Source: Atopobium massiliense (GTDB lineage Bacteria > Actinomycetota > Coriobacteriia > Coriobacteriales > Atopobiaceae). Taken from it: 64,000 bases of DNA. Shown here piece by piece: positions 1 through 61,909 of this stretch (the first letter of the stretch is position 1; every line of letters starts with the position of its first letter). Position numbers and translations under genes: made by a program. The notes beneath the pieces are model-generated. The model had not been told where the DNA came from, made no database searches, and saw only the letters and a program-made list of their open reading frames with translations. The stretch covers positions 117,630-181,629 of the forward strand of contig OPYK01000004.1 of the NCBI GenBank assembly GCA_900343135.1, written 5' to 3'.

Positions 1-520
1 CACCAGAAAACTCATGCGGATAGCGTGATGCATATGAACTATCGAGGCCTACCTGCTCCATTACTTCAAGAACACGTGCCATTCGCTCCTGGGGTGTATG
101 ATAGCTGCGCGCAATATCGATAGGTTCAGCAATAATATCGGCAACACTCATACGCGGATTAAGCGAGCTATACGGATCTTGAAAAATAAGTTTTAGGGCT
201 CTACGTGCACGAATAAGATCCTTACCGGCAAGCGTTGTAACATCGCTTCCCTGCAGCAAAACAGAACCACTTGTCGGTTCACAAAGCCGCAAAATGCATT
301 TCCCCGTGGTAGATTTTCCACAGCCGCTCTCGCCTACAATCGCAAACGTTTCGCCACGATGAACATCAAACGACACATCTTCAAGCGCATGAACAACGCT
401 CTGCGTGCGCGAGAATAATGAACGCCGAATTGGATAGTGCTTCGTGAGATTGCGCACACTAAGTATTACGTCAGACGTGGTATGTGCGCTGGTTGTAGCT
501 GCTTGCGCATTAGTTTTCAT
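1..520 (-). CDS. oppF: Oligopeptide ABC transporter ATPase OppF, partial at left edge
   Basis: This is the ATPase subunit of a peptide importer, energising the OppB/OppC permease from the cytoplasmic face. The visible N-terminal 173 residues hold a Walker A motif (GESGCGKST) preceded by the typical Opp/Dpp-F opening with a linker around residues 15-40, the Q-loop region (LIFQDPYSSLNPRM, typical of DppF/OppF), and the start of the ABC signature (YPHEFSGG) exactly at the window edge. Walker B and the C-terminal Opp domain lie outside. The ATG overlaps the end of oppD by 11 bases, so translation is probably coupled. It is the last visible gene of the oppABCDF operon. Substrate could also be dipeptides. 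Confidence 0.9.
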   Translation of the reverse strand, partial: MKTNAQAATTSAHTTSDVILSVRNLTKHYPIRRSLFSRTQSVVHALEDVSFDVHRGETFAIVGESGCGKSTTGKCILRLCEPTSGSVLLQGSDVTTLAGKDLIRARRALKLIFQDPYSSLNPRMSVADIIAEPIDIARSYHTPQERMARVLEVMEQVGLDSSYASRYPHEFSG

Positions 521-1679
521 GGCTATCTCCTTCCCAAACGTCTGAATACTTCCAGCAGCGCACTTCATGATGAGTCTGCTGTCCTACCTGTTGCATCTGC
601 GGTTTTTTGGTTTTACAAATCTCACGCGCAAACGGACACCGTGGATGAAATGGACAGCCTTCTGGCATTGCGTTTAGCATGGGCACCGAGCCTGGTATGG
701 CGTAGAGCTCCTCCTGCTTAGATTCAAACGTTGGAATTGAATCGATAAGACCCTGCGTGTACGGATGAAGCGGTTTTGCAAACAAATCGGCTGCGCGCGT
801 ATATTCAACGGTGTGACCTGCATACATAACGAGCACCCAATCGGCCATTTCACTTACCACACCCATATCGTGCGTAATAAGCATAATGGCTGTACCATGC
901 GTTGTTTTAAGACGGTCAAGCAACTGTAAAATTTGCGCCTGAATGGTAACGTCGAGTGCGGTTGTTGGTTCATCGCAAATGAGAAGTTCAGGTTCACATG
1001 CAAGTGCCATGGCAATCATAATGCGCTGCCGCATACCACCGGAAAGCTCGTGTGGATAACTTGCGTACACCTTTTCGGGTGCAGGAATACCTACCTGCGA
1101 CAACATATCAAGCGCACGCAGGCGCGCCGCGCGTTTGTCCATACGTGGATTATGCGCAAGGATTGCCTCACGTATTTGATTGCCTGCACTCATCACAGGA
1201 TTAAGTGACGTCATCGGCTCCTGAAAAATCATGCCAATGCGCTTGCCACGGTAGGATTGCCGCTCTTTTGCAGTTTTATGAGTGATGTCCTCGCCCTGAA
1301 AGCGTATAGAACCGCAGGTAAGCTTAGCTGGCGGTGTGGGCAACAAGCCCATAATAGCAAGCGCACTCATCGACTTTCCGCAACCGCTCTCACCTACCAC
1401 GGCAAGGGTTTCACCGGCACGCATGCGTACGTGTACCTGCTGTAGAGCAGGGAGCTGTTGCTTATCTGAAAACAATGTAACGTTCACATTATCAAGTTCA
1501 AGAAGCGGCACATCTGCAGATGCGCATGATGCCCCCGAAGATTGAACTTGAACCTGCTTTTCCACCGAAGAAGCACTCGAAGTGGCATGTGTGCCATCAG
1601 ACGCGTTAGGGGCACAGCTATCCTGAACTTGTGCAGGTAAATGCTTGTGTTCATGCAATATGCGAAGTAATGAAGCCAT
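510..1679 (-). CDS. oppD: Oligopeptide ABC transporter ATPase OppD
   Basis: This is the second ATPase of the peptide importer. After about 60 poorly conserved, Ser/Ala/Val-Gln-rich residues, the ABC domain shows Walker A (GESGCGKS), the Q-loop ([12 protein letters not shown]), the signature [10 protein letters not shown], Walker B ([12 protein letters not shown]) and the His switch (LITHD). The C-terminus carries the oligopeptide-type cysteine cluster ([10 protein letters not shown]...C) that in some family members holds an Fe-S cluster. I chose the ATG that follows AGGAGG by five bases rather than a GTG two codons upstream. The 389-residue length exceeds the usual 320-350 because of the N-terminal extension. 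It lies 9 bases after oppC. Confidence 0.93.
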
Positions 1680-1688
1680 ACGCACCTC

Positions 1689-2528: not shown

Positions 2529-2530
2529 CG

Positions 2531-3466
2531 TCACTCCTCCTTGTCTTTAGCTAACCGAATGCGTGGATCAACCACGGTATACAACACATCTACCAGCAGA
2601 TATACAAACACACATAGGATTGAAATATACATAACAACGCCCTCAATAAGCGGCAAATCGCGCGCAGTGATCGCATCGAGAATGAGCTTGCCCATGCCTG
2701 GCATCGCGAATACCGATTCGGTAATAAGCGATCCACATAAAATGTCGCCAAGCTGAGCTCCCGCGATGGTGATAATAGGAATGAGCGCGCAGCGAAGACC
2801 GTGGCAGATAATGATACGCACGCCGCTTAGACCCTTCGCCGCAGCAGTGCGCATAAAGTCTTGCCCTAACTGATCTACCATGGCTGTGCGGGTAACACGC
2901 GCAATACTGGCAGCATAGCGACACGACAATGCGCAGGTAGGAAGCACAAAACTAAGAGCGGTTTTTACGCCCGACAAAGGAAACCACCGCAAGTTGAGCG
3001 CAAAAATAATTTGAATAACAATTGCCACCCAAAATGACGGAGCGGAAATACCAAACACCGCAAGTGACATAAGCGCTCGGTCGATGGCTTTGCCGTGATA
3101 TACCGCAGCGCACACGCCAACTCCAATGCCAACAACAAGGGCAACTATATACGAAGAAAGCGCTAACGTAAGGGTTACAACCAGCGCTTTTGCAATGAGC
3201 GCCGACACAGGTTTATGCTGCGTGTACGACTCACCAAAATCGCCGTGCACAAGCTTGGCAAACCACTGCGTGTACTGCTCAAGCACGGGTTTATCGAGCC
3301 CCATAGAATGGCGCACCTGCTCAACGGTGGCATCGTCGGCATTATCGCCCATCATAATACGCACGGGATCCCCGGGCACGATGTTCAAAACAAAAAATGT
3401 AATGGCAGAGATACACAGCACAACCGCAAACGCTTGAAGAATGCGTTTAACGAGGTAATCTCTCAT
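2531..3466 (-). CDS. oppB: Oligopeptide ABC transporter permease OppB
   Basis: This is the partner permease of OppC. The 311 residues start with the family opening (MRDYLVKRILQAFAVVLCISAITFFVLNIVPGDP is the usual DppB/OppB layout), followed by the phrase MGLDKPVLEQYTQW and an EAA loop (RTAAAKGLSGVRI). About six hydrophobic segments are visible. The ATG chosen lies five bases after GGAGG; an in-frame ATG farther upstream has no such site. The gap to oppA, about 210 bases, contains a hairpin and a perfect palindrome that may set the ratio of binding protein to permease. Confidence 0.93.
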   Translation of the reverse strand: MRDYLVKRILQAFAVVLCISAITFFVLNIVPGDPVRIMMGDNADDATVEQVRHSMGLDKPVLEQYTQWFAKLVHGDFGESYTQHKPVSALIAKALVVTLTLALSSYIVALVVGIGVGVCAAVYHGKAIDRALMSLAVFGISAPSFWVAIVIQIIFALNLRWFPLSGVKTALSFVLPTCALSCRYAASIARVTRTAMVDQLGQDFMRTAAAKGLSGVRIIICHGLRCALIPIITIAGAQLGDILCGSLITESVFAMPGMGKLILDAITARDLPLIEGVVMYISILCVFVYLLVDVLYTVVDPRIRLAKDKEE

Positions 3467-3680: not shown

Positions 3681-5312
3681 TTAGCCTTCTGTAGTGTAGT
3701 TTGGATCGGTTGTATCAATATCCACTTCAAACGTGTGATAAATCAAGTTACCAACCCGCGCATTCTTTACATACGATTTAGCAGCAAAAACGCCCTTTGT
3801 CCAAAATAGTGGCAGTGTTGCAACATCTTGACGCGTAAGAAGTTCATCTGCCCTACGATACAAACTCTCACGCTCGTGTTCATCACGAGAAACACGCGCT
3901 TTATCAAGAAGCTTGTCAAACTCAGGATTGTTGTAGAACGATGATTTCTTTGCAGAAGCGCTACTGTGGAAGTACGAATACATGTGGTTGTCACCATCGG
4001 CATACAACGGGTACCATTGCAGCAATGTAACCTGCAAGTTGCCCTGGGTCCAGTCTTGACTCCAAGCACCGTTGTCCTCAATTTGAACATCAAGTTCAAC
4101 GCCAATCTTTGACCAGTAGCCCTGAATTGCAACAAGTTCTTTTTGGCTAAGACCCTGGCGCGTCTTTGCCGAAAGTTTAAGATGCGACACGCCCGCTTGT
4201 TCAAGCAGCGCTTTTGCCTTTTCAGGATTATATTCAAACGGCGGCTGATCTTTAAGTGAACCCGGCGTTTGCGGTGCCAGCCAACCAGATGCAACAGTTC
4301 CAGAACCGTTATACAGAGTATCGAGCATTTCTTGACGATTGATAGCAAGCGAAAGTGCCTGGCGTACACGCTGGTCGGTAAGACCAAAGCCCTCTTTAAG
4401 GTTGAGGTTTACAAAGTCAACACCCAACTGATCGTAGTAGTGAATATCGTCTTTCACTGCCGGATCTTCTAGCAGCTGCGTAAGGCTGTTAGCAGGCACG
4501 TTACAAAAGTCAATATCGCCATTTTTGTATGCAAGAATACAGGTATTTGGGTCGTCGTAATACTTGTAGTGAATTTCATCAAGCAGGGGCTTGTCGCCGT
4601 AATAATCTTCAAACGCAGCCAAAACAACTTCGGTTGAATCGTCGTTTGAAACCAACTTATAGCGACCGGTACCAATAAGGTTGGTACCCTGACCCCATGT
4701 TTGACCAGCCTTTTCGCACGCATCCTTTGGGAAGATTTCTGCATACGAAATACCAAGGTTTTTAACAAACGTTACGCCGGGCTCTTTAAGGATGAACGTA
4801 AAGTGCGTATCATCCTGAATTTGAATACCCTTAAGCTCCTTTGTTTTGCCTGCTAGCATGTCGTCTGCACCAAGGATTTGAGCATACAGTGATGTAGATT
4901 TACCTGCAGTTTCGGGAAGGAACATGCGCTCGAAGGTGTACTTAACATCGGCTGATGTAAGTTTTGAACCATCGTGAAACACAACACCGCTACGAAGTTC
5001 GCATGGCAGTGTTACGCAGTCGTCATTAAACGTCGGTATAGAAACCAACAGCTGGGGCACAAGTTCATTATCTTCTGTCCAGCGCAACAGCGGTTCAGTT
5101 ACCGAGTCGGCAATTGATGCGGATGCAGATGTGTTACTGCGCTGCATGTCCAAACCCTGCTTTGCATTTGCTTGGCCAAAACGCAGGATTTTCTTCTTTG
5201 CAGTGCTGCCGCCTTCAGCCTCGCCACAAGCAGTAAGCATAGCTGAAGCGGCAAAGCCGCCTAGAGTGACAGCTGATGCCTTGAGGAAACTTCGACGAGA
5301 AACTGATTCCAT
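3681..5312 (-). CDS. oppA: Peptide-binding lipoprotein OppA (SBP family 5)
   Basis: This is the extracellular solute-binding lipoprotein that captures peptides for the downstream OppBCDF transporter. The 543-residue product opens with a twin-arginine-like signal (SRRSFLKASAVTLGGFAASAM) and a lipobox ending LTAC, so it is predicted to be lipid-anchored at the cysteine near residue 31. The mature part has the SBP_bac_5 layout: LRSGVVFHDGSKLTSADVKYTFERM, a central IGTGRYKLV and FNNNPEFD-like C-terminal blocks. I start at the ATG after AAAGGTGG; the longer reading has no signal at its N-terminus. It is the first gene of the operon and is read divergently from trmB. Confidence 0.92.
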   Translation of the reverse strand: MESVSRRSFLKASAVTLGGFAASAMLTACGEAEGGSTAKKKILRFGQANAKQGLDMQRSNTSASASIADSVTEPLLRWTEDNELVPQLLVSIPTFNDDCVTLPCELRSGVVFHDGSKLTSADVKYTFERMFLPETAGKSTSLYAQILGADDMLAGKTKELKGIQIQDDTHFTFILKEPGVTFVKNLGISYAEIFPKDACEKAGQTWGQGTNLIGTGRYKLVSNDDSTEVVLAAFEDYYGDKPLLDEIHYKYYDDPNTCILAYKNGDIDFCNVPANSLTQLLEDPAVKDDIHYYDQLGVDFVNLNLKEGFGLTDQRVRQALSLAINRQEMLDTLYNGSGTVASGWLAPQTPGSLKDQPPFEYNPEKAKALLEQAGVSHLKLSAKTRQGLSQKELVAIQGYWSKIGVELDVQIEDNGAWSQDWTQGNLQVTLLQWYPLYADGDNHMYSYFHSSASAKKSSFYNNPEFDKLLDKARVSRDEHERESLYRRADELLTRQDVATLPLFWTKGVFAAKSYVKNARVGNLIYHTFEVDIDTTDPNYTTEG

Positions 5313-5841
5313 CTTAGTCCACCTTTCGAACGAGTTACATATACAATAAAGCACGGGATCGTGCGTTAGTTCATAAAGCTTAACATCTATTCAGCTTTGT
5401 GTAACGTAGCATTTGAAAAATAAGAGTCCTTGAAATAATTGATTAATATTTGAAACCATTCTGAAACAGTTTGCACAAAGAATTCCGACGTATATGCAGG
5501 TTTAATGGTTAACAACGTGTATTATATGAAACCATTATGTAAAACTGAACATGATAATTGAACTTATGGTATAGGGGCTCAATTATCAGCTACGTGCTAC
5601 TCGCAGTGCAAAACCGGATACCTACGAACTTATAATTTCGCACTTTTATTGGATATAAAAGTTTGAACATACCGCAGCGCCACATGCACTGCTGATGGAT
5701 GTAACTCTGCATACGTCGCACTCATCTTTGAGCTTTTTGCGCGCGCGGCTACATCCATACTATACTAAACAGCGAACGTTGCAGGTATCCAACGCATATT
5801 CCTGCACGCACACACGCACGCGCCTACACGAAGGATTTTCT
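5313..5841. other. Divergent intergenic region between oppA and trmB
   Basis: This AT-rich stretch of about 530 bases must hold the promoters for the opp operon and the trmB-like gene. I see a repeated GAAACCATT (near 5452 and 5528), two TTGAAC words (5558 and 5663), and a ten-base perfect inverted repeat (TGATAATTGA at 5552 and TCAATTATCA at 5579). A long in-frame extension of trmB covers its right part, but it has no ribosome binding site and no conserved residues. No confident -35/-10 pair could be assigned. Confidence 0.4.
5552..5588. promoter_or_regulatory. Inverted repeat, possible operator
   Basis: The arms TGATAATTGA and TCAATTATCA are perfect over ten bases with a 17-base spacer. 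The position, mid-way between two divergent genes, suits an operator or a leader hairpin. There is no T run, so a terminator is unlikely. No protein is identified. Confidence 0.3.
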
Positions 5842-6678: not shown

Positions 6679-6870
6679 GGCATTGCGCACAGGCACGCAA
6701 GGTGCGTAAATGAACAGGTAGTACTAGTCATTTACTCTCTTGTATACCGTTTTGATAGGCAATCTACCTGCGATTAAGCTCAGTTTGTGCATCTTGTTGA
6801 TACATCATTACGCAAATGCGTTTTTGACCTATACTTTAGAAAGATATGAACAAATACATACACATGTTGA

Positions 6871-9281: not shown

Positions 9282-11213
9282 ATGAGCACACAACACACAT
9301 CATCAGAACGCACGCAAAAATTTAGTGTTAACGAAATACTAAAACAAATACAACAAGAGCAGCTAGAGCAGCTAAAACATACAAAACCATCAAGCGCGAG
9401 TGCTGACGTGACAACGCAAATTCCCGCTACAAACAACGCGACTAAACCTGAAGACAGCTCTCAAGCACATACGAAAAAAGCACCTGAGGCAAAAACTGAG
9501 GCACAACCTCAAGCAAAACCTCAAGCAAAACCTCAAGCAACCGCTACCAAGTCAGCACGAACAAGCGAGCAGGTAGACAAGGGCACGGCAGCACATGCAC
9601 AAGCCGCAAAACCAAACGCACAAGCAAGCACGCAACCAAATACAAAACCAAACACAAACCCAAACGAACAAGCACCAGTATCATTTAACGCGGCGCTTAC
9701 CAACCCAAAGGCCGATCTCGAAGCGCTCGACACACTCGAACGCACACTTGCAGCGTGGCGTTATGCAGCTGCCGAAATTGGTGGCCTTGGCATGTCTATC
9801 GACCCTGAAGGAGCCTCAACCGTCCGCGGCGACGTGCTTGCCAGCTTTGAACAACAACGCCGTGAGTTGCTGCTCAATCCTTCGACAACAGCGCTTCTTG
9901 ACCGCTTAAGCTGCCCTTCGGCTGTACTTACCGAACAGGCAACGATGCAGGTACGTGTACTTAAACAAGACATCAAAAAAATTGCCGGCGTACCGGTTTC
10001 GCTGGCGTCTGCATACCAAAAACTCCTCTGCGACGCTGATGCCGTGTGGCACCGCGCAAAAGCTCAAAACAACTGGGGCGCGTTTAGCGGCTATTTGGAG
10101 CAGATTATTGCACGCATGAAAGAAATTGCTCACACGAAAAACCCCGATGCCGACCCATACGATGTGTGGCTCAGCGAATTTGAAGACGGCCTGAATCAGG
10201 CGTATCTCGACGATATGTTTGAAAAGATAACTGCCTGCACAACACCTCTTATCGCGCAGATTGAACGCAAAAAGCAGCGCGGCTTTACCGTTACGCACGA
10301 TGTATTTAACGGTAAGTTTGATGAGCAGCGCCAATGGCAACTTGCCCGCGATTTGCTTAAACTCGAAGGGCTCGATCTTTCGCGCGTGTTGCTTATTCCA
10401 ACTGAGCACCCCTACTCCGAGGCACCGTCGTGTAGCTGGGGTATTATCGCAAGTCATGTGTACGAACACGACATTCTCTCTAACGTGTTTTCAATGTTTC
10501 ACGAGGGCGGTCACACCCTCTATGAGCTGGGTGTTAAGGACGATTATGAACGAACATCGCTTAAAGGCGGCACGTCATTTGGTATGCACGAAGCACAGTC
10601 GCGCTTTTTCGAAAATTACATCGCGCGCGACCGCTCATATATCCCCCACATTCTTGCGTGCATGACGAAGCATTTTCAAGGTCAGCTTGGTCGCGTAACG
10701 CCGAATCAGCTGTGGCGTGCAGCAAACGAAGTGCATCCCGAGGCTGTACGCTGCGATGCCGACGAGCTTACGTATTCTGCGCACATTATGATTCGCTATC
10801 AGCTTGAAAAGCGCCTGTTTAATGGATCGCTCAAGGTAGAAGACGTGCCCGATGCATGGAACAGCCTTACCCGTGAGCTTTTGGGCGTGGACGTGCCAGA
10901 TAATGCCCATGGTTGCCTGCAGGATATGCACTGGTCAAGTGGGTATATTGGCTACTTTGCAAGCTATGCATACGGCAACGTGATTGGCGCACAGCTGAGG
11001 CATCAAATGATGGAAGATGGCCTTATGTGGGATGCAATCTTGGCGTCGGGCGATATTCACCCCATTCGTCAATGGCTTAAAACCAACATTTGGCAATATG
11101 GTCGCTCAAAATCGACAATTGAACTTATGCAAGCAGCATGCCACGAACCTATTCGCACAGAATACTACCTCGACTACCTGCAAAAGAAGTTTACGTCGTT
11201 ATATAACCTGTAG
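9282..11213 (+). CDS. M32-family metallocarboxypeptidase with repetitive N-terminal extension
   Basis: A zinc carboxypeptidase (Taq/Pfu type) that removes C-terminal amino acids from peptides in the cytoplasm. The family signature is MFHEGGHTLYELGV with the HExxH at about residues 407-411, followed by the downstream glutamate helix (GMHEAQSRFFENYIARD) and the C-terminal SGYIGYFASYAYGNVIGAQL. The family is normally near 500 residues; this protein has 643. The first 135 or so are low-complexity, rich in Ala, Gln, Lys, Pro and Thr, and include a 12-base tandem repeat encoding KPQA units. GAAGGG lies just before the ATG. It heads a plus-strand group with dtd and mscL. Confidence 0.9.
   Translation: MSTQHTSSERTQKFSVNEILKQIQQEQLEQLKHTKPSSASADVTTQIPATNNATKPEDSSQAHTKKAPEAKTEAQPQAKPQAKPQATATKSARTSEQVDKGTAAHAQAAKPNAQASTQPNTKPNTNPNEQAPVSFNAALTNPKADLEALDTLERTLAAWRYAAAEIGGLGMSIDPEGASTVRGDVLASFEQQRRELLLNPSTTALLDRLSCPSAVLTEQATMQVRVLKQDIKKIAGVPVSLASAYQKLLCDADAVWHRAKAQNNWGAFSGYLEQIIARMKEIAHTKNPDADPYDVWLSEFEDGLNQAYLDDMFEKITACTTPLIAQIERKKQRGFTVTHDVFNGKFDEQRQWQLARDLLKLEGLDLSRVLLIPTEHPYSEAPSCSWGIIASHVYEHDILSNVFSMFHEGGHTLYELGVKDDYERTSLKGGTSFGMHEAQSRFFENYIARDRSYIPHILACMTKHFQGQLGRVTPNQLWRAANEVHPEAVRCDADELTYSAHIMIRYQLEKRLFNGSLKVEDVPDAWNSLTRELLGVDVPDNAHGCLQDMHWSSGYIGYFASYAYGNVIGAQLRHQMMEDGLMWDAILASGDIHPIRQWLKTNIWQYGRSKSTIELMQAACHEPIRTEYYLDYLQKKFTSLYNL
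9507..9542 (+). repeat. 12-base tandem repeat in the M32 peptidase gene
   Basis: Nearly three copies of CCTCAAGCAAAA lie in frame and encode Pro-Gln-Ala-Lys units of the N-terminal extension. Changes in copy number would alter the length without shifting the frame. Confidence 0.8.
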
Positions 11214-12292: not shown

Positions 12293-12293
12293 C

Positions 12294-15494: not shown

Positions 15495-15641
15495 AGTTCC
15501 TCTTCCATGTGTTAACCTTGCACAAACTGTGCCACGGTCGCGTATGCATACGAGCAGGTAGAAGGCAAGTACAGCAAAGCCAATCTACGCGCATCCCAAA
15601 CGCAAAACCCATGTCCAAACCCAAGGAGCCTAAATGAACTC

Positions 15642-17198: not shown

Positions 17199-17564
17199 AT
17201 GCATCCTTCATCGTGCAAAATAGCAGGTAAGGCGCGCTCAAGTAATTCAGCCATCTAGCTAAAACAACGTATTGGCACTACCTGCTTATAAACTAACCAA
17301 TAAACACAACAAAGCGCATGAGTTACCATGCCCAACGATAATTTCATGCGCTTATGCGTTCATTTCATTATGACAAAGGCTCTTGCATCATGCAAATTTT
17401 TACGAGTAATCATCACATTTGCGCACAGGCAAGCCTGCAAATGCCGTATGCTTATATCACGGCACAGCTCAACAATGCTGCTGTGGTACACACAACCACA
17501 CGCCACAGGGGCCGTCCATCGAAACGCGCAAAACCGCTGCTACAACCACACGATAAGGATGCTC
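17199..17564. other. Divergent gap between the adenylating enzyme and helicase genes
   Basis: These about 365 bases lie between divergent genes. They contain a ten-base perfect inverted repeat (AAGCGCATGA at 17312 and TCATGCGCTT at 17344). The helicase frame stays open leftwards from its start, but the extension lacks a ribosome binding site and conserved sequence. Promoters for both genes should be here; none is clear. Confidence 0.35.
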
Positions 17565-45580: not shown

Positions 45581-46342
45581 ATGGCTCAAGATACAATGAC
45601 CCTTGTTATTATCCGACATGGCGAAAGCGAATGGAACAAGCTTAACTTGTTTACCGGTTGGACCGACGTAGATCTTACCGAGCAAGGTCACAAGGAAGCC
45701 TGCGAAGGCGGTCGCGCGCTTAAAGCAGCTGGTTATGACTTTGATATTTGCTATACGTCGTTGCTTAAGCGTGCTATTCACACACTTAACCATGTTCTCG
45801 ACGAAATGGACCGAAACTGGCTTCCTGTGTATAAAACCTGGCGCTTAAATGAGCGTCACTACGGTGCACTTCAGGGTCTTAACAAAGCAAAGGCTGCAGA
45901 AGAGCACGGTGAGCAGCAGGTTAAAATTTGGCGTCGTTCGTTTGACGTTCAGCCTCCTGCGCTTACCCCTGGCGACGAGCGCGATCCACACACGCAGGAC
46001 ATGTTCCGCGATGTTCCACAAGAAGATCTTCCTTACACTGAGTGCCTTAAAGACACCATTGCGCGTGCATGGCCTTATTTTGAGGAAACCATTAAACCAC
46101 AAATGTTGGCAGGTAAACGCGTACTTATCGCTGCTCACGGCAACTCGCTACGTGCGCTGGTTATGCAGTTTGAGCACCTTACGCCTGAGCAAATTCTTGA
46201 GGTAAACATTCCAACTGGTATTCCATGCGCTTACACGTTTGACAAAGACTGGAATATTTTGGACAAACACTACATTGGCGATCCTGCGGTAATCGAAGCT
46301 AAGATTAACGCTGTTGCCAACCAGGGCAAAGCCAAAAAATAG
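45581..46342 (+). CDS. gpmA: 2,3-bisphosphoglycerate-dependent phosphoglycerate mutase
   Basis: GpmA interconverts 3- and 2-phosphoglycerate in glycolysis. The 253-residue protein matches throughout: LVIIRHGESEWNKLNLFTGWTDVDLTEQG with the phospho-histidine RHG, YTSLLKRAIHT, WRLNERHYGALQGLNKA, and LIAAHGNSLRALV. Start ATG follows AAAGGA. It is monocistronic with a strong terminator. Together with eno in this window it covers two steps of lower glycolysis. Codon use is that of a highly expressed gene. Confidence 0.97.
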   Translation: MAQDTMTLVIIRHGESEWNKLNLFTGWTDVDLTEQGHKEACEGGRALKAAGYDFDICYTSLLKRAIHTLNHVLDEMDRNWLPVYKTWRLNERHYGALQGLNKAKAAEEHGEQQVKIWRRSFDVQPPALTPGDERDPHTQDMFRDVPQEDLPYTECLKDTIARAWPYFEETIKPQMLAGKRVLIAAHGNSLRALVMQFEHLTPEQILEVNIPTGIPCAYTFDKDWNILDKHYIGDPAVIEAKINAVANQGKAKK

Positions 46343-46410: not shown

Positions 46411-46441
46411 ATGCAGGTACCATGCGGTACCTGCATTTTTT
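46411..46441 (+). terminator. gpmA terminator made of an inverted GCAGGTA pair
   Basis: Arms ATGCAGGTAC and GTACCTGCAT (ten bases, perfect) around a six-base loop are followed by six T residues. Both arms contain the heptamer that is over-represented in this window. Confidence 0.9.
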
Positions 46442-50156: not shown

Positions 50157-51365
50157 ATGCCACAACTAACCCAAACGAAGGAAATTGCAGCTACCGAGCG
50201 CGTGTTTAATGAGCATTTTGGCGATAATACCAATGATCGCCGTCTGCACGTACACGCACCCGGCCGCTCAGAAATTGCCGGCAACCACACCGATCACGAA
50301 GGTGGGCACGTTATCGCAGGTGCACTTAACGTTGCAATTACTGGTATTTGCGCAGCTAACGGTACCGATACAATTCGCGTTGTGTCAGAAGGCTTCGATC
50401 CTTTTGAAATTACCATAGGCGATCTTGATGTTCACGCCGACGAGCACCTTACCACAACAAGTTTAGTGCGTGGCATGGCGCACCAACTGGTTGCAACCGG
50501 CAGAACACCACAGGGTTTTGATATTGCAATGACGAGCACGGTTCCTGGTGGAAGTGGTCTTTCGTCATCGGCTGCCTGCGAAGCAGCACTTGGACGCTGC
50601 ATGGAAGCGCTCTGGGAAGGCCCCAGTATCTCTCCTATTGAACTTGCACTCAGCAGTCAAAAAACGGAAAACGATTACTTTGGTAAACCCTGCGGACTTA
50701 TGGATCAGCTTGCCGTGTGCTTGGGCGGTCTTGCATTTATGAACTTTGAGGATCCGGCACATCCTCAATTTGAACGCTTAGGGTTCAATTTTGAAGATGA
50801 CGGCTATGCATTATGCCTGGTAAACGTAGGTAGCGACCATGTTCAATTTACGGATGAGTATGCGGCAGTGCCAACGGAAATGCAGGATGTTGCACGCGCA
50901 TTTGGTAAGACACGTTTGTGCGAAGTTGAACCTTCTGCATTTAACGCGCGCGTTGTTGAACTTCGCGAGAAACTCGGCGATCGCTGCTTGCTGCGCGCTA
51001 TTCACTACTGGTATGAAAATGGCTTGGTAGATAGCCGCTGGCAAGCGCTTCAAGCAAACGACATTGCTGCATTTTTGGATCTTACACGCAAATCGGGCGC
51101 AAGTTCGGGCATGTACCTGCAAAACGTTTCCACCGCAGGCGCCTATCAGCCAGCCATGCTTGCACTTGGTTTGGCCGAGCATATCTTAGCAGGTAAGGGT
51201 GCTATCCGTATTCACGGTGGCGGTTTTGGCGGTTCAATTCAGTGCTTTGTTCCCCTTGCACAAGTTGATAACTTTATTGAACAAATGGATGCATGGTTTG
51301 GCCAGGGTGCAGCACTGCGTTATGCCATTGCCGATAAAGGAGCTTATGCACAATGGCTCAACTAA
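50157..51365 (+). CDS. galK: Galactokinase
   Basis: GalK phosphorylates α-D-galactose with ATP. The 402-residue GHMP kinase shows the galactose signature as GRSEIAGNHTDHEGG (usually GRVNLIGEHTDY; the changes keep the key H-T-D), the P-loop-like GGSGLSSSAA (near residue 132), a catalytic aspartate in PCGLMDQLA, and GGGFGGSIQ at the C-terminus. AAAGGA precedes the ATG. It follows galM by about 110 bases and overlaps galT by 13. Confidence 0.95.
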   Translation: MPQLTQTKEIAATERVFNEHFGDNTNDRRLHVHAPGRSEIAGNHTDHEGGHVIAGALNVAITGICAANGTDTIRVVSEGFDPFEITIGDLDVHADEHLTTTSLVRGMAHQLVATGRTPQGFDIAMTSTVPGGSGLSSSAACEAALGRCMEALWEGPSISPIELALSSQKTENDYFGKPCGLMDQLAVCLGGLAFMNFEDPAHPQFERLGFNFEDDGYALCLVNVGSDHVQFTDEYAAVPTEMQDVARAFGKTRLCEVEPSAFNARVVELREKLGDRCLLRAIHYWYENGLVDSRWQALQANDIAAFLDLTRKSGASSGMYLQNVSTAGAYQPAMLALGLAEHILAGKGAIRIHGGGFGGSIQCFVPLAQVDNFIEQMDAWFGQGAALRYAIADKGAYAQWLN

Positions 51366-53188
51366 CATCCCCCACATCTAGCACAGTTCAAGTTCAAAAG
51401 AACGACAAAGAAGTTCAATCTGTACGCGCACGTGCGCAGATTGTACGCGATGTAGAAACGCTCGTCGACTACGCTCTGCTATGTAACCTCATTCAACCCG
51501 GCGACAAAATTTGGGCATTTAACAGCATTTGTTCATGTATTGGCGAAGTTGAAGCCGCACCTGAGGAATTGTGGCTTACCACAATAAAGCAGAATGCAAG
51601 CGCAGACATAACCATAGACACGTTTCCAATTGAAGCGCATTTAACAAAACTTGCGCAGGTTGCCATTGCAAACCACAAAGAAGAAGACACGCCAAGCGGA
51701 CGCGATCGTGTTGCAGTGAACATTATTGGCATGCTCATGCCACGCCCAAGCACGGTTTCAGACACGTTTATGCAGCTTATGCACTCAAAAGGTTCGGCTG
51801 CAGCGTGCGCGTATCTGTACACGCTTTCATGCCAAACATGCTACGTGCGAAAAGAAGCCATTGCGCGCAACCTTGCATGGACGTCGACCATTGATGGCAA
51901 TGAACTTGAGATAACAATTAACCTCTCAAAGCCCGAAAAAGATCCAAAAGCGATTGCTGCTGCAGGAAGCGCACCACAAGGTGAGCGCTACCCTGCCTGC
52001 CAGCTTTGCATTCAAAACGAAGGCTTTGCAGGACGCAGCGCTGCGGCTGCTGGCGGCGCGCACCCTGCTCGCAATAACCTGCGCATCATCCCCCTTACGC
52101 TTGGCGGCGAGCGCTGGGGTTTTCAGTATAGCCCGTATGCCTACTTTAGCGAGCACAGCATTGTTATGAGTGCTAGTCACCGCCCCATGCACATCGATAC
52201 CTCGGCATTTTCTAATTTACTTGAATTTGTTGACACCTTTGATGCCTACATGATTGGTTCAAACGCCGATTTACCCATTGTGGGTGGTTCAATTTTAAGC
52301 CACGACCACTATCAAACGGGTTTGCACGTATTTCCGCTGATGAAAGCCCCTACCAGACGTTGTGTTGCGCTGGCAGGGTATAACGGTGTTGCAGCAGAAG
52401 AACTCATATGGCCGCTTAGTACCATTCGCTTAACGGCGTGCTCAAAAGATGAACTTATACGTGCAGCAACGCACGTGCTTGATACATGGAAAGCGTATAA
52501 CGATCAAGAAGCGGGCGTAGTTGCCTATGATAGCGATGGCACGCGCCACAACACCATAACGCCTATTGCACGTAAGGTGCCGGCATCGTCGATACGCGAT
52601 GAAGTTGCTGCGATATGCAGCACAGAGCACGATGCCACTGCAGCTCAAACAGTGTATGAACTCTACCTTGCGCTGCGCTGCAACGTTACAAGCAAAGAGC
52701 ACCCGCTGGGTGTGTTTCACCCGCATGCGGAATATCACCACATTAAAAAAGAAAATATTGGCCTTATTGAAGTAATGGGACTTGCAATTTTGCCAGCGCG
52801 CCTTAAGAGCGAGCTGCACGATTTGTGCGATGTGCTCGAAACTGCGCAAAACGAAGGCCTGTTTAATAAGGCTGCGCACGAAAACGCTGACGCAAACACT
52901 GATGCAGAAACGCAGGCACACGTAGCAGCAGATACGGTGTATGCCCGCTGCATAGAAAAACCAAGCTGCAACCTCCATGCAGCGTGGGCACGCGACATTG
53001 CAACACGCATTTACCACAAACGGCAAAGCGAGCATAAGGCAGCGTATTCGCGAGATGAGCTTGAGGCTCTTCTTCGAGAAGAAACGTCGCAGGTATTTTG
53101 GGATGTACTCGAAAACGCTGGCGTGTTTAAGCTAACGTCTGATGGCTTTGCGCAATTTGATGCGTTTGTTGATGCAGTAAATAAGTAG
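51353..53188 (+). CDS. galT: Galactose-1-phosphate uridylyltransferase, class II, enlarged
   Basis: GalT exchanges UMP between UDP-glucose and galactose-1-phosphate. The sequence is the class II (Firmicutes-type) form: YPACQLCIQNEGF, RIIPLTLGGERWGFQYSPYAYFSEHSIVMS, and the active-site block GGSILSHDHYQTGLHVFPL near residues 310-325. Family members have about 490-500 residues; this one has 611, with extra sequence at the N-terminus, near the middle (AIAAAGSAPQGE) and in an Ala/Asp/Asn-rich C-terminal insertion near residue 510. The start overlaps galK, with AAGGAG about eleven bases upstream. It is the last gene of the operon. Confidence 0.92.
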   Translation: MAQLTSPTSSTVQVQKNDKEVQSVRARAQIVRDVETLVDYALLCNLIQPGDKIWAFNSICSCIGEVEAAPEELWLTTIKQNASADITIDTFPIEAHLTKLAQVAIANHKEEDTPSGRDRVAVNIIGMLMPRPSTVSDTFMQLMHSKGSAAACAYLYTLSCQTCYVRKEAIARNLAWTSTIDGNELEITINLSKPEKDPKAIAAAGSAPQGERYPACQLCIQNEGFAGRSAAAAGGAHPARNNLRIIPLTLGGERWGFQYSPYAYFSEHSIVMSASHRPMHIDTSAFSNLLEFVDTFDAYMIGSNADLPIVGGSILSHDHYQTGLHVFPLMKAPTRRCVALAGYNGVAAEELIWPLSTIRLTACSKDELIRAATHVLDTWKAYNDQEAGVVAYDSDGTRHNTITPIARKVPASSIRDEVAAICSTEHDATAAQTVYELYLALRCNVTSKEHPLGVFHPHAEYHHIKKENIGLIEVMGLAILPARLKSELHDLCDVLETAQNEGLFNKAAHENADANTDAETQAHVAADTVYARCIEKPSCNLHAAWARDIATRIYHKRQSEHKAAYSRDELEALLREETSQVFWDVLENAGVFKLTSDGFAQFDAFVDAVNK

Positions 53189-53264: not shown

Positions 53265-53303
53265 AATGCAGGTAGACACCAATGGCATCTACCTGCATTT
53301 TTA
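53265..53303 (+). terminator. galT terminator made of an inverted GCAGGTA pair
   Basis: Twelve-base perfect arms (AATGCAGGTAGA and TCTACCTGCATT) around an 11-base loop are followed by TTTATT. It closes the galMKT operon and, like the gpmA terminator, is built from two opposite copies of the frequent heptamer. Confidence 0.9.
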
Positions 53304-53387: not shown

Positions 53388-55922
53388 TTATTTTCCGTAC
53401 GCGGTTAGCGCAGCAAGCACGGCGTCTTTATTTGCATCAATAAACGCAGCTTTACCAGCGATAAGCGTAATGTCCATATCAATTTCGCGACCCAAGCCTG
53501 GCTGCGGACGTTTTGGCTCAAAGAATTCGGTAAACTCGGCAAGGCGCTCATGCGTATGGAACGCGCGGGCTGTTGCCTCAATAAACATCGTAAACTCCAT
53601 GTCGCCGCCAACCGTTGCCTCAAGCCACTGCCAATTGGTGCGCAGCCAATTCCACGCAAGCTGCTGCGCATCATCGTTATCAAGAAGAAGCGCATACCAC
53701 AGGCGCAAATCTTGCGGCTTAATAATATCCGCGCAGATAAACGCCTTAAGAATCGATTCAATGTGAGCGGTGTTTTTGCTGGCACACACGGCAGCGCACA
53801 CATCGCTCTTAAAGTGTGCATCAGCTGTGTGCTGGTAGGCATCCATAAGCGCGCCAAAAAGCTCGTCGTTGCCATAATGCTGCACTTCATTTTTAAGCAC
53901 AAGCGCACGAACATCGGCGCACAGCTGCAAAAGTTCGGTTTTATGATCCACATACATATCGTGAAGTGCGCAAATAGTGTCCTTATCCTGGCCATACAGC
54001 GCCATCGCAAGTGCACATGGACGCGTAAGCGCATCGTCAACAGGCTCGCCTTCGCGCGGGCTTACCCCAAGACGCGCAACGCTCTCATGCGCAAGCTCGC
54101 GTGCATATGCCTGGAGCTGCTGCTCGTGCGCAGATCCGCTTTCAACAAAGCTGTCAAGCGTACGTACAAGCTCATGAATGCTGCGCTGCACAATGTACGA
54201 GGAGCTGTGTGCAAGCGTGCGCGCAAGCGGCATACACGCAGCCAGCGATACCTTGCCTGCTTTTGCAAGAAGCTGCATGTCCTGCAACAATTGGAGCTGG
54301 TCGATGTGAGAAAGTGTATCGATGTGCTGGGCAATATCAGAAAGAAGTGCATCGTCGTAGTGAATTACCGCATGCGTGTTGTTGCCCACGTTAAGACGTA
54401 AAGGCGTGCCGGCCTGTGCGCGGGTTTCTTTGTAGGAATTAATGCTGCAGTGCTTTTCGCTCATAATAGCAGGCACAACGTCCCAGTTAGACGCTAGCGG
54501 AATTTGCCAGAGGCGCTGCTTGTCCTCATGCTCTCCAATGAAGAATTGCTGCTGCTCAATCTGAACGGTATCTTTCTCAAGACGTACAGAAATAACGGGG
54601 TAACCAGGCTGCTCAAGCCACGTTTCCATAATGGCGCCCACGTTAAAACCGCTCGCCTGTTCAAGCGCGTGCCACAAATCGGCACCCTCGGCATTACCAT
54701 ATCCGTGAGCCTCAAAATAGGCTTTAAGGCCGTTACGCAGCGCTTCATCACCCACAAGCGCACGCACCATAACAAGCAGGCGCGCACCTTTGGCGTACAC
54801 GATAGCACTGTCAAAAATCGCATCGATTTCTGCCGGATCTTCAACCATTACGTGCACCGACTGCACACCATCGGTTGCATCGCGGGCAAGTGCCAGCGGC
54901 GGCTCCGATGCCTGGAAGGCCTCCCAAATTTTCCACGTAGGCTCAAGCGCGTCGATAGCCACGTACTCCATCATATTGGCAAACGACTCATTAAGCCACA
55001 GGTTATCCCACCATTTCATGGTAACAAGGTCGCCAAACCATTGGTGCGCAAGCTCGTGCGCAATAACGTTCGCCACACGCTGCTTGTTTGGCAGCGAGCT
55101 GTTATCGGGGTCGAGCAGCATGTACGCCTCACGATAGGTAACCAAACCCCAGTTTTCCATCGCACCCGCCGAAAAATCGGGCAGCGCAATTTGGTAGGAA
55201 TGCTCAAGTGGATAGGGCGTGTGGTAAAAATCTTCGTAAAAATCAATGCAGCGCGTTGCAATGTCAAGGGCAAAGTCGAGCTCTTTTGGCTGGTGTGCTT
55301 TTGTTGAGAATACGCCAATCTCAACACCGCTGGCAGTGCGTGCAAACTTAGACTGCAACTCACCTAGCGCAAATGCAAGCAGGTAGGTTGACATGCGCAC
55401 CGTTTGCTTAAACGTGTGAATGCCGTTTGTGCACGACACTTCGGGCTGATTTGAAATAACGGTTTCGCCTGGTTTTTCGTCAAAACGAATAGAAAGCGTA
55501 AACGTTGCTTTTGCACTCGGCTCATCAACACACGGAAATGCTTCGCGCGCAAAGGTGGTTTCGAATTGAGTGCTTACCAGCTGTTTTTTAACGCCATCGT
55601 GCGTGTAATACGAAGGATAAATGCCCATCATCATATCGGTAAGAGGAGCGCTAAAGGCAACGTCAATCTGCGTGGCGCCCGTGGTATAGCCTTCGATGGT
55701 AAGGGTTTGAGTGTCATCGGAGCTGGTATACGTGCAGGCTTTGCCATCTTGCTTAACGCTCGTAATGGTAAGGTAGCGCTGGTTGAGCGCAAACGTTGAG
55801 GTATTTGCCGTACCTGTGATGTGTACTTCGCCCGAAAAACGCTTTGTTTCTCGGTTTATGTCGAGAAAAATATCGTAGTGTTCAGGAACAAACGCATCTA
55901 AGAGCCGCTGTGGTGTGGACAT
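53388..55922 (-). CDS. pepN: M1-family metalloaminopeptidase (aminopeptidase N)
   Basis: PepN removes N-terminal residues from peptides in the cytoplasm, completing breakdown of imported peptides. The 844 residues hold the exopeptidase motif GAMEN, the zinc motif HELAHQWFGDLVTMKWWDNLWLNE with its distal glutamate, the tyrosine transition-state region (VYAKGARLLV), and the ERAP1-like helical C-terminus. I chose an ATG nine bases after AAAGGA over one three codons upstream. No signal peptide is present. It is monocistronic and convergent with galT. Confidence 0.95.
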   Translation of the reverse strand: MSTPQRLLDAFVPEHYDIFLDINRETKRFSGEVHITGTANTSTFALNQRYLTITSVKQDGKACTYTSSDDTQTLTIEGYTTGATQIDVAFSAPLTDMMMGIYPSYYTHDGVKKQLVSTQFETTFAREAFPCVDEPSAKATFTLSIRFDEKPGETVISNQPEVSCTNGIHTFKQTVRMSTYLLAFALGELQSKFARTASGVEIGVFSTKAHQPKELDFALDIATRCIDFYEDFYHTPYPLEHSYQIALPDFSAGAMENWGLVTYREAYMLLDPDNSSLPNKQRVANVIAHELAHQWFGDLVTMKWWDNLWLNESFANMMEYVAIDALEPTWKIWEAFQASEPPLALARDATDGVQSVHVMVEDPAEIDAIFDSAIVYAKGARLLVMVRALVGDEALRNGLKAYFEAHGYGNAEGADLWHALEQASGFNVGAIMETWLEQPGYPVISVRLEKDTVQIEQQQFFIGEHEDKQRLWQIPLASNWDVVPAIMSEKHCSINSYKETRAQAGTPLRLNVGNNTHAVIHYDDALLSDIAQHIDTLSHIDQLQLLQDMQLLAKAGKVSLAACMPLARTLAHSSSYIVQRSIHELVRTLDSFVESGSAHEQQLQAYARELAHESVARLGVSPREGEPVDDALTRPCALAMALYGQDKDTICALHDMYVDHKTELLQLCADVRALVLKNEVQHYGNDELFGALMDAYQHTADAHFKSDVCAAVCASKNTAHIESILKAFICADIIKPQDLRLWYALLLDNDDAQQLAWNWLRTNWQWLEATVGGDMEFTMFIEATARAFHTHERLAEFTEFFEPKRPQPGLGREIDMDITLIAGKAAFIDANKDAVLAALTAYGK

Positions 55923-59162: not shown

Positions 59163-60101
59163 CTACGAAGTTTGCAGAGTTCTTGAACTGGTGCGCGCTA
59201 TAAGCGCGTGAGTTGCCACATTGATAAGCAGCGTAAACACAAGAAGAATGCAAGCGATGCCAAATGCTGTTGTAAAATCACCCTGACTTGTAGCACTTAG
59301 ATAAAGCTGCACAGTGAGAGTTCCACCCGATGCAAACAATTTTGAAAAGAGCGCACCTATGCTGTGCGGCAGGAGTTTTGCACTCCCCGCTGTAAAGAGC
59401 AGCGCGGCCGATTCGGCAACAATGCGGCCAAGCGCCAAGATAACGCCCGTTACTATAGACGGTGCTGCCACGGGTAACAAAATGGTGCGAATAGTATGCC
59501 ATTTACCTGCACCTAAGCCAAAAGCGCCAAGCTTATAGCCCTGGGGCACACACGCAAGCGCCTCTTGCGTATTGCGCGTAATAAGCGGAAGAACCATTAA
59601 CACAAGTGTTAGTGCGCCGCACAAAAGACTATATCCAAGCCGAAGGACTTGTCCAAAAAATAGCATGCCAAATAAACCAAAAATAATAGAAGGAATGCCG
59701 GCAAGAACATCGGTAGCAAAATCTATAACGCGCACGAGCCTTTTGTTGCCCGCGTATTCTTGCAGGTAAATGGCACTACCAACGCCGAGAGGTACAGCGA
59801 TAGCAAGTGTTGCCACAACAATGATAATCGTATTGATAATATTTCCTGCAACGCCTACCGTACCTTTACGCAAAGACGTACTGCAGGTAATAAATTCGAG
59901 ATTAAGGGCAGGCAATCCCTGCGACAGCACATAGCCAATCATGCCTACCAGCAAAAGCACAATGAGTGCTGCTGATACATACACAAATGCATATACGGTG
60001 AAATCTGTAGCTTTAACAGCAAGCTCGTGTGACACGTGTGGTGTTCGCACGGCAGTGGGTACGTGGATGTTGGTAGGCGCACAGACAGTGTTATTCTCCA
60101 T
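59163..60101 (-). CDS. pstA: Phosphate ABC transporter permease PstA
   Basis: A membrane subunit of the phosphate transporter. The 312-residue protein has an unusual N-terminal tail of about 30 residues, six hydrophobic segments, and the PstA phrases GIPSIIFGLFGMLFFG, LTLVLMVLPLITRNTQEALACVP and the EAA loop GAFGLGAGKWHTIRTILLPVAAPSIVTGVILALGR. The start overlaps the end of pstC by 11 bases. Membrane topology agrees with the family. Confidence 0.95.
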   Translation of the reverse strand: MENNTVCAPTNIHVPTAVRTPHVSHELAVKATDFTVYAFVYVSAALIVLLLVGMIGYVLSQGLPALNLEFITCSTSLRKGTVGVAGNIINTIIIVVATLAIAVPLGVGSAIYLQEYAGNKRLVRVIDFATDVLAGIPSIIFGLFGMLFFGQVLRLGYSLLCGALTLVLMVLPLITRNTQEALACVPQGYKLGAFGLGAGKWHTIRTILLPVAAPSIVTGVILALGRIVAESAALLFTAGSAKLLPHSIGALFSKLFASGGTLTVQLYLSATSQGDFTTAFGIACILLVFTLLINVATHALIARTSSRTLQTS

Positions 60102-61002
60102 AGCAATGCTTCTTTCGTTTTGTGAGTAGTACGATGCTATTTATGCAGATAATAAACGCATACAGTACAACACCTACAGCAAACAGTGCTTCTTTATGAA
60201 GCCCCTGCGCATAGCTCATTTCGCTTACCAGCTGGGTTGTGAGCAGGCGCACCGAAGCAAACGGAAAAGGCAGGTTAACGCCACCACCAGCCACCATGCT
60301 AATTGCCATAGCTTCACCAAGTGCTCGACCAACGCCTAACACAACTGCTGCAAAAATACCCGATTTAGCTGCAGGGTTAACAACTTTTATGATTGTTTGT
60401 ATGCGCGTAGCGCCGAGTGCATACGACGAGGCACGAAGCAATGCAGGTACCGAACGAAGCGCCGACACACTCATGCCTATCATGGTTGGAAGCACCATAA
60501 CCACAAGCACGCATATGCACGCAAGCATATTAGAACCACCGGAATATTGATGCGCTGGATTATTGTTGTATATGACGAGCTCAGCACGGTACAGCAAAGG
60601 GCACAGCACAACCATTCCCACCAAACCATATATTACGGAGGGAATTCCAGCTAACAGCTCTATAAAGCTACTTACGATTGCTGCAATACGCGCAGGTGCA
60701 AGCTCCGTTATGTAAATTGAAACGGCGATGCTCAACGGCAAGCCAATACAAACACTTACTGCCGTTGCAAGTGCTGATGCAAGAATGATATAGCCTATAC
60801 CAAATGCAGGTGGATTTGTTGTTGGACTCCACTGAACACCGCACAACATATTGCCAATACCGATGTGCATAAGTGCTGGCAGACCGCTTATTAAAATGTA
60901 TATGCTTATTGAGGCAACCGCGAGCACCGCGATACACGCGCACGCTGCGCACACAGTTTGAGCAGCATGTTCTTGCGCATGTTGTTTTTGATGCAGAAGC
61001 AT
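60091..61002 (-). CDS. pstC: Phosphate ABC transporter permease PstC
   Basis: The second membrane subunit for phosphate uptake. Six membrane segments are seen in 303 residues, with ELLAGIPSVIYGLVGMVVL, VMVLPTMIGMSVSALRSVP and the loop ASSYALGATRIQTIIKVVNPAAKSGIFAAVVLGVGRALGEAMAISMVAG. GAAGG stands six bases before the ATG, 13 bases after pstS. Confidence 0.95.
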   Translation of the reverse strand: MLLHQKQHAQEHAAQTVCAACACIAVLAVASISIYILISGLPALMHIGIGNMLCGVQWSPTTNPPAFGIGYIILASALATAVSVCIGLPLSIAVSIYITELAPARIAAIVSSFIELLAGIPSVIYGLVGMVVLCPLLYRAELVIYNNNPAHQYSGGSNMLACICVLVVMVLPTMIGMSVSALRSVPALLRASSYALGATRIQTIIKVVNPAAKSGIFAAVVLGVGRALGEAMAISMVAGGGVNLPFPFASVRLLTTQLVSEMSYAQGLHKEALFAVGVVLYAFIICINSIVLLTKRKKHCYGE

Positions 61003-61015
61003 GTGTCACCTTCTA

Positions 61016-61909
61016 CTATGCAGCTGCGTCTGACTTAGCTGGCATAACACCGGCGCGTTTTATAGTTTGTATACCTTCGTCAGATTTGATGTATGAAAAC
61101 CAGGCTTGTACCAGCGCCGATTGTTCGGATACCGCTCCTTTAGTAGCCATAATAAACGGACGCACAAGCGGATACTGCTGCGAAGCAATAGTGTCTGCCG
61201 TTGGAGCTACACCATCAAGTACGAGCGCGTTTACCGAGTTAGAGAGCGCATCGAGCGAAATATAGCCAATTGCACCTGGTGTTGACGCTACTTTTGCAAG
61301 GACAGCTCCTGTTGAATCAAGCTCTTGAGCATACACGCAGCTATTTTTAACATCAACAAGCTCTTCAAATGCACTGCGAGTGCCCGAAGCATTTTCGCGA
61401 CCGATGACCACAATAGCTGCATCTTGTGCACCTAAATTCTTCCAAGAAGTAACCGACCTCGTAAAAATTTGCTTAAGTTGATCTTTTGTAACGCTTGTGC
61501 AGGTATTCGCCTTGTTAACAACCACTGCAATACCATCGAGCGCCACCACATTGCCAACAATGCCCGAGGTTTTTTCGGCTTGAGAAAGTTCGCGCGAGCT
61601 ATTAGCGATGTCGCACAAGCCATTAGTAAGCGACTCGATGCCAGCGCTTGAGCCTGTGTATTCAACCGAAACGTGCACGTTGGGGTATGTATTCATGAAA
61701 CCTTCGCTCAGCGCTTCGCACACCTTTTCCATTGACGTGCTACCAGCAAGCGAAATATTTCCTTGCAGATTTGAGCTAGAAGTATCCGCAGTGTTCTGAT
61801 TGGTTGTTGAGCATGCTGTTAATGCTAGTCCAGCAGCGCTGACCAATAGACTGGCTCCCAGGCGGCATACGTGACGGCGAGTAATATAGTGTGTCGTATA
61901 GTGTGACAT
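61016..61909 (-). CDS. pstS: Phosphate-binding lipoprotein PstS
   Basis: PstS captures phosphate at the cell surface for PstCAB. The 297 residues begin with an RR-containing signal (TRRHVCRLGASLLVSAAGLALTAC) and a lipobox cysteine, then SLAGSTSMEKVCEALSEGF, VEYTGSSAGIESLTNGLCDIANSSREL, and IGRENASGTRSAFEELV, all with phosphate-contacting serines, threonines and arginine of the family. GGAG is five bases before the ATG. It starts the pst-pho operon; a Pho-box-like repeat lies 90-130 bases upstream. Confidence 0.94.
   Translation of the reverse strand: MSHYTTHYITRRHVCRLGASLLVSAAGLALTACSTTNQNTADTSSSNLQGNISLAGSTSMEKVCEALSEGFMNTYPNVHVSVEYTGSSAGIESLTNGLCDIANSSRELSQAEKTSGIVGNVVALDGIAVVVNKANTCTSVTKDQLKQIFTRSVTSWKNLGAQDAAIVVIGRENASGTRSAFEELVDVKNSCVYAQELDSTGAVLAKVASTPGAIGYISLDALSNSVNALVLDGVAPTADTIASQQYPLVRPFIMATKGAVSEQSALVQAWFSYIKSDEGIQTIKRAGVMPAKSDAAA

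Follow-up and report, generated by a model that had tools for sequence, protein, structure and literature searches.

The window analysed here is a stretch of 64,000 nucleotides from Atopobium massiliense (contig OPYK01000004.1, positions 117,630 to 181,629), and our subject is the heptamer TACCTGC, or GCAGGTA on the opposite strand, which is scattered over it. The excess of this word is independent of codons and is present on both strands. A longer, asymmetric motif of about 15 bp, approximately TYTACCTGC-D-NN-WWT, has the heptamer as its core, and we hypothesize from the sequence that this motif could well be a tag for self-DNA recognition, of the same type as the uptake signal sequences (USS) of Haemophilus and other Pasteurellaceae and the DNA uptake sequences (DUS) of Neisseriaceae.

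The two strands of the window hold exactly 53 copies. The original prediction for this DNA had counted about 53, and its sites agree with ours save one, which starts at 18777 and not at 18778. Dinucleotide shuffles of the window give 7.5 +/- 2.7 copies and none of 100 shuffles reaches 53, while an order-2 Markov model expects 13.0. A 353-kb sample of the genome, which contains the window, has 243 copies against 72, 132 and 160 expected under Markov models of order 2, 3 and 4; the stricter the null, the smaller the excess. The codon-aware null described below gives 245 against 76, or 3.2-fold, in the same sample (245 instead of 243 because overlapping gene segments count double). The seven-fold excess claimed at first is overstated because it was based on a low-order null, and as an effect size we have rejected it in favour of the roughly 3.2-fold found when codons and their junctions are preserved. 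The assembly of 1,548,103 bp (16 contigs) contains the word 1,025 times and the reversed word 201 times. Both this ratio (5.1) and the density of 0.66 per kb are the highest among 140 family genomes searched, where the runners-up reach 3.1 and 0.39 per kb, respectively. The density is 0.93 per kb between genes and 0.64 per kb within them. Within the window, 42 copies are found in called genes (5, 5 and 10 by frame in sense orientation, 11, 1 and 10 in antisense) and 11 are intergenic. It had also been claimed that most ACCTGC words are preceded by T and most TACCTG words followed by C, which is partly right, the counts being 53 of 100 and 53 of 76. The copies in the window are given here, except for four that form terminators and are listed further below:

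50..56, + strand, TACCTGC core
1092..1098, + strand, TACCTGC core
1314..1320, - strand, TACCTGC core
1434..1440, + strand, TACCTGC core
1633..1639, - strand, TACCTGC core
2933..2939, - strand, TACCTGC core
4901..4907, + strand, TACCTGC core
5781..5787, - strand, TACCTGC core, outside called genes
6765..6771, + strand, TACCTGC core, outside called genes
9569..9575, - strand, TACCTGC core
9947..9953, - strand, TACCTGC core
11175..11181, + strand, TACCTGC core
15548..15562, - strand, full motif TYTACCTGCDNNWWT, core at 15554..15560 (-), outside called genes
15733..15739, - strand, TACCTGC core
16139..16145, - strand, TACCTGC core
17223..17229, - strand, TACCTGC core, outside called genes
17279..17285, + strand, TACCTGC core, outside called genes
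18585..18591, - strand, TACCTGC core
18777..18783, - strand, TACCTGC core, in tandem with the next core at a 9-bp step
18786..18792, - strand, TACCTGC core
20192..20198, + strand, TACCTGC core
20477..20491, + strand, full motif TYTACCTGCDNNWWT, core at 20479..20485 (+)
22283..22289, + strand, TACCTGC core
23189..23195, - strand, TACCTGC core, outside called genes
24278..24284, - strand, TACCTGC core
29559..29565, - strand, TACCTGC core
30114..30120, - strand, TACCTGC core
33977..33983, + strand, TACCTGC core
35015..35021, + strand, TACCTGC core
35774..35780, + strand, TACCTGC core, overlapping the next core as palindrome TACCTGCAGGTA
35779..35785, - strand, TACCTGC core
39651..39657, - strand, TACCTGC core
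40186..40192, - strand, TACCTGC core
40663..40669, - strand, TACCTGC core
40726..40740, + strand, full motif TYTACCTGCDNNWWT, core at 40728..40734 (+)
41290..41296, - strand, TACCTGC core
41330..41336, - strand, TACCTGC core
41781..41787, - strand, TACCTGC core
41858..41864, + strand, TACCTGC core
46109..46115, - strand, TACCTGC core
51114..51120, + strand, TACCTGC core
51189..51195, - strand, TACCTGC core
53089..53095, - strand, TACCTGC core
55379..55385, - strand, TACCTGC core
59504..59510, + strand, TACCTGC core
59756..59770, - strand, full motif TYTACCTGCDNNWWT, core at 59762..59768 (-)
59883..59889, - strand, TACCTGC core
60443..60449, - strand, TACCTGC core, outside called genes
61499..61505, - strand, TACCTGC core

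The independence from codons was established with genes called by a simple script. In the main null, synonymous codons were exchanged only where both the encoded amino acid and the adjacent bases were identical, which preserves the proteins, the codon pool and the junction dinucleotides, and counts were kept separate for three frames in two orientations, i.e. six classes. TACCTGC is the sole 7-mer out of 8,170 in the 353-kb sample that is enriched in five of the six classes; the sixth holds just two copies. There are 190 copies in genes against about 64-68 expected, and 55 between genes against 13.2. A further 200 kb of held-out DNA gives the same picture, with TACCTGC again the sole 7-mer (of 8,097) enriched in five classes and 127 copies against 40 overall. 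The 6-mers that reach five classes, CAGGTA, ACCTGC and AGGTAG, all lie within the motif. An unrelated word, TATCGA, is enriched in four classes, and neighbour effects therefore act elsewhere too. In-frame codon pairs, named in the original prediction as the explanation to be tested, are ruled out as the origin of the excess by shuffles of this kind, and the argument that codon bias alone is insufficient for copies in all frames and both orientations holds, with five classes instead of six.

The extent of the motif was determined frame by frame, by comparing the flanks of the copies with those of copies arising in shuffled genes, plus an intergenic background. Upstream there is a preference for T at -2 (chi 22.0) and C at -1 (chi 13.5), C is avoided at +7 (chi 15.8), A or T is preferred at +10 and +11 (chi 19.2 and 16.8), and T at +12 is the strongest flank position of all (chi 38.8). 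Beyond these, -6 alone stands out a little (chi 12.2), the others staying below 8. Enrichment in the sample rises from 3.2-fold for the core to 6.9-fold with the upstream flank, 9.2-fold with the downstream tract and 29-fold with both (18 copies against 0.58), and copies with the wrong flanks are enriched 1.5-1.8-fold. The flanks were picked on the sample, and the held-out figures therefore matter: there the full motif is 14-fold enriched (5 against 0.30) and T.TACCTGCD..WWT 15-fold (10 against 0.60), with 1.2- to 2.6-fold for the wrong-flank classes. The core is sharp, since none of its 21 one-base variants exceeds 2.17-fold, and over the whole genome the full pattern matches 69 times and the reversed pattern twice.

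No overall strand bias was found. The majority gene strand holds 125 of the 243 copies in the sample and 176 of 371 when the held-out copies are added (p 0.35), and a direct count on contig C7 gives mixed orientations. Two inverted pairs of the heptamer had been described as the gpmA and galT terminators, and these hairpins are real. Both carry T-runs and fold well, with -20.4 kcal/mol (z -6.9) for the one at 46413-46434, which follows a His_Phos_1 (PGAM-type) gene, and -20.0 kcal/mol (z -5.6) for the one at 53268-53296 after galT. They are good intrinsic terminators, although this is not proof that such pairs are a general feature. They comprise:

46413..46434, + strand, inverted TACCTGC pair, intrinsic terminator after the PGAM-type gene at 45530-46342, followed by the T-run
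46413..46419, - strand, and 46428..46434, + strand, TACCTGC cores, the arms of this terminator
53268..53296, + strand, inverted TACCTGC pair, terminator between galT (+) and a pepN-type gene (-)
53268..53274, - strand, and 53290..53296, + strand, TACCTGC cores, the arms of the galT terminator
53288..53302, + strand, full motif TYTACCTGCDNNWWT, inside the galT terminator

A comparison with related genomes, suggested together with the original prediction, reveals that many of them carry another dispersed, strand-neutral motif, TGNCGAGAAGNNC, which the genome of A. massiliense is without, and this motif is a stronger case than TACCTGC is here. We sampled 46-400 kb from each of 15 other genomes, picked partly by raw counts and contig sizes, so that pooled figures describe a non-random sample of the family. 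In a mechanical scan CGAGAAG or an overlapping word ranks first in G010, G014, G003, G017, G064, G009 and G032 (in the last the top word is enriched in two classes only), in G038 CGAGAAG comes second to GCCGAGA, which overlaps it, and CCGAGAA is third in G022. The word is the sole one of 6,904 enriched in all six classes in G003, and the sole one of 7,815 with five classes in G017. This motif is also longer and gapped: C stands at +9 in 64-89% of the copies (+10 when counted from CCGAGAA), and in G010, G014 and G038 about 56-60% have G at -2 and about 40-54% have T at -3. The fold of the gapped form over the null was measured in three genomes: CGAGAAG..C reaches 12-fold in G010 and 3.8-fold in G003, TG.CGAGAAG..C 30-fold and 9-fold in the same two, and CCGAGAAA..C 57-fold in G009. 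Copies on the majority and minority gene strands number 80:71 in G010, 32:32 in G038 and 49:31 in G009, with the minority strand ahead in G014 (46:45); on the G-rich strand there are 141 of 323 in G017, a slight deficit (p 0.03), and 59 of 134 in G064.

Among 49 family genomes, A. massiliense counted in, 35 have CGAGAARNNC at twice or more the frequency of its reversed control, and 22 reach three times or more together with a density of at least 0.5 per kb. The ratio is below 1.5 in seven, A. massiliense being one of them (0.79), and the motif occurs in some genera but is missing from others. Elsewhere in the phylum, 110 genomes have a density near or under 0.3 per kb, judged by eye. Samples of this size from G026, G027, G037, G034 and G042 have no clear dispersed word. 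G038 has more opposite pairs of the motif than expected (8 against about 0.8), and three of the pairs listed there are near-copies of each other. The spacing in G032 is more even than random, with a coefficient of variation (CV) of 0.60, when a simple calculation expects about 0.9 after a 60-bp cut; it is not clearly more even than random in the other relatives. A different word, TGGCGAA/TTCGCCA, is raised in G072 (L123-L127), with 59 copies against 20.7 in genes and 17 against 4.7 between them. It may be another dialect; its flanks have nothing clear.

TACCTGC itself occurs at a weaker level in the relatives. Six of them, including G038, which has CGAGAAG, give 1.4-fold and rank 293 for the word. 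A flank score trained on A. massiliense is raised at intergenic copies (t 4.9 in nine relatives with the CGAGAA motif, 2.7 in the six), but barely at genic ones (t 2.2 and 0.4), and part of the intergenic rise may be composition since the control there is any random site. Two genomes looked TACCTGC-rich and were set aside. G027 has a high raw count, yet is 1.5-fold against its own null. G005 has 44 matches of the full motif, but is not counted as support because 14 of 22 matches in 20 stretches lie, by eye, in repeated elements. These elements (L151-L170) have two kinds of matching inverted ends around a conserved TCTACCTGCRNTTATATAA...TGCAAYCAA; two copies were folded (z -5.7 and -1.1), and nine stretches searched against Rfam gave one weak match, mir-6536, far under the cut-off.

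The original prediction had also suggested a search for com and pil genes, and by domain match the transformation machinery is present in the genome. A comEA gene (SLBB and helix-hairpin-helix) adjoins comEC and holA, dprA was found, and there is a Tad locus with a SAF/RcpC (CpaB-like) gene, in which RcpC itself is below the cut-off, a ParA-type ATPase (CpaE-like by place), TadA, two T2SSF genes of TadB/C type and a TadE-like gene. The single T2SSE ATPase match of the genome is of the Tad type by size and neighbours. According to PMC6668835, the transformation of Micrococcus luteus requires a Tad locus. Of 40 genomes examined for ComEC, 38 have it, and a T2SSE match is present in 79 of 80. As for recombination, adjacent AddB-like (1,241 aa) and AddA-like (1,357 aa, UvrD and nuclease) genes are present in the genome. 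The window has a 1,255-aa frame at 27078-30845 (- strand) with a RecJ match in its first half and a RecQ match in its second, an apparent recJ-recQ fusion.

In our view no other single reading explains as much of the data, from flanks and strands to the machinery and the relatives' parallel motif, as an uptake tag does, though we hold it with reserve. The Tad/ComEA apparatus of this single-membrane host would preferentially bind tagged DNA, which would enter through ComEC and then recombine, and biased uptake would make the tag accumulate in the genome; TGNCGAGAAGNNC would play the same part in many related genera. The motif is similar to USS in that a short core is dispersed on both strands, in genes and in some terminators, at several hundred copies per Mb, and USS likewise have an A/T-rich tract downstream of the core. 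As in USS and DUS, strands and reading frames are used alike, and hundreds of dispersed copies stand above the codon-aware expectation in the sampled DNA. There are differences too. The core is 7 bp instead of the 9 bp of USS (9-12 bp with an extended flank for USS and DUS together), with weaker positions up to +12, the spacing is random, and the host has a single membrane and Tad instead of a type IVa pilus, the uptake role here being read from sequence. The DUS dialects of Neisseriaceae offer a parallel for related genera with different motifs of one general kind, but here the motifs differ by more than a single letter, and relatives have the weaker one alongside the other.

Several observations weigh against an uptake tag. 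USS show a very large excess, and 3.2-fold is small beside known uptake sequences; a harsher shuffle, with two neighbouring bases fixed on each side, leaves 1.7-fold (190 against 110), which we take as a lower bound because it freezes most copies of the motif. Two wrong-flank classes stay 2.3-2.6-fold enriched in the held-out DNA, and 51 of the 128 held-out copies are on the majority gene strand (p 0.03), a mild lean to the other one. The spacing has a CV of 1.07-1.11, no more even than chance. Pairs in opposite orientation and at most 45 bp apart number 4 (three of them between genes) against about 3.4 expected, which is no clear excess. ComEC, PDDEXK_1 and T2SSE genes are also found in relatives with neither motif, and the presence of such genes therefore does not discriminate. 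The strong form of TACCTGC is seen in one genome only. Pooled over the nine CGAGAA-bearing relatives, the word is about 1.95-fold enriched (226 against 120 in genes, 61 against 26.7 between them) and ranks 7 of 8,191, the best of all words that do not overlap CGAGAA, which a simple switch of dialect does not predict. The uptake reading of the original prediction is thus kept in part: the codon-independent excess on two strands, the longer motif, the com genes and the motif of the relatives speak for it, whereas the seven-fold excess and a general enrichment of inverted pairs find no support.

The serious rival is a Chi site: GCAGGTA, with GCTGGTAG, would be the signal at which the AddAB of this lineage protects chromosomal ends and loads RecA, which we consider conceivable but rather unlikely. 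An over-represented 7-mer and adjacent AddAB-type genes are what Chi of RecBCD or AddAB would lead one to expect, and GCWGGTAG resembles GCTGGTGG, the Chi of Escherichia coli, which is one base from GCTGGTAG. The latter is enriched in genes (43 copies against about 10), but 20 of the 43, with 1.9 expected, sit in one frame class. The main reason for keeping a conserved function such as Chi as a rival is the weak signal of TACCTGC across the family, which parallels the PDDEXK_1 (AddAB-type) genes found in 16 of 16 genomes, 15 above the cut-off. As a control, the same pipeline was run on 350 kb of E. coli K-12, where GCTGGTGG is fifth of 30,202 8-mers and is enriched in two of the six classes. 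Its excess is 2.1-fold in genes and 3.2-fold outside them, with a leading-strand skew of 57:20 and no flank signal (largest chi 7.3 over 67 genic copies). The test thus detects Chi, and TACCTGC differs from it in flanks, strand and number of classes: the word is not an exact one of 5-8 nt free of flank requirements, as its flanks count out to +12, and it lacks the skew of the equal-sized E. coli sample. A density of 0.66 per kb is also high for a 7-mer Chi. The original prediction had proposed strand bias as a test between these readings, and there is no overall skew, but this alone does not eliminate Chi, since several established Chi sites have none. PMC5959072 gives the skew as not significant in Bacillus subtilis, Staphylococcus aureus and Haemophilus influenzae, and the Pseudomonas Chi as even on the strands in P. 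fluorescens.

Another explanation, which we find improbable, is that an abundant protein, regulatory or chromosome-organising, binds the motif along the nucleoid. An asymmetric site of about 15 bp with an A/T tract suits a binder of double-stranded DNA, and the copies are denser between genes, but most of them lie within genes and in five frame classes. It is still less probable that TACCTGC has been raised without selection, as a by-product of mutation or repair. One such by-product, a methylation-linked bias, has been proposed for highly iterated palindrome 1 (HIP1) of cyanobacteria, likewise a highly repeated word in several frames, although HIP1 is a palindrome and TACCTGC is asymmetric. 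Other words are raised too: TATCGA is 2.4-fold in genes and has 38 copies against 20.9 between them, and TGCCGAT is 3.3-fold against a simple synonymous null. On the other hand, the three 6-mers and one 7-mer with five classes all belong to the TACCTGC motif, whose flank preferences sit at a distance, at +10 to +12. FtsK-orienting polar sequences (KOPS), which guide FtsK to the terminus, are dispersed short asymmetric words as well, but a word of this kind is very improbable here since the copies have no polarity between origin and terminus on either measure, the majority gene strand in A. massiliense or the G-rich strand in two relatives (41:43 and 17:18).

A second over-represented word in the window, AAGTTCAA/TTGAACTT, has 23 copies, at sites that include 1494, 1542, 3513, 3532, 27369, 27393, 30923-30977, 51390 and 51411. 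In the 353-kb sample it occurs 39 times against 1.6 between genes and 86 times against 19-30 within them, often arrayed in steps of 6-21 bp, and it looks like an operator array or a short repeat family, not a dispersed tag. The longest TACCTGC-free stretch of the sample, 11.9 kb, covers the 3' half of a 4,361-aa open frame on contig C6 (L020 4553-17638, - strand).

A small number of narrow searches found no literature on such a motif, or on competence, in this group. Were the motif a Chi site instead, the group would gain a candidate recombination signal. Returning to the uptake tag, we tentatively suggest, as a wider and more doubtful extension of it, that the single-membrane actinobacteria of this order run uptake dialects of their own on Tad pili and ComEA/ComEC, with TGNCGAGAAGNNC in many genera and TYTACCTGC-D-NN-WWT in its place here; self-DNA recognition in transformation would then have arisen a third time, independently. 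If the uptake reading is true, this would be the first self-DNA uptake tag outside two Gram-negative families, transformation would be predicted for this group of actinobacteria, and the evolution of self-DNA discrimination would become testable beyond the Gram-negatives.

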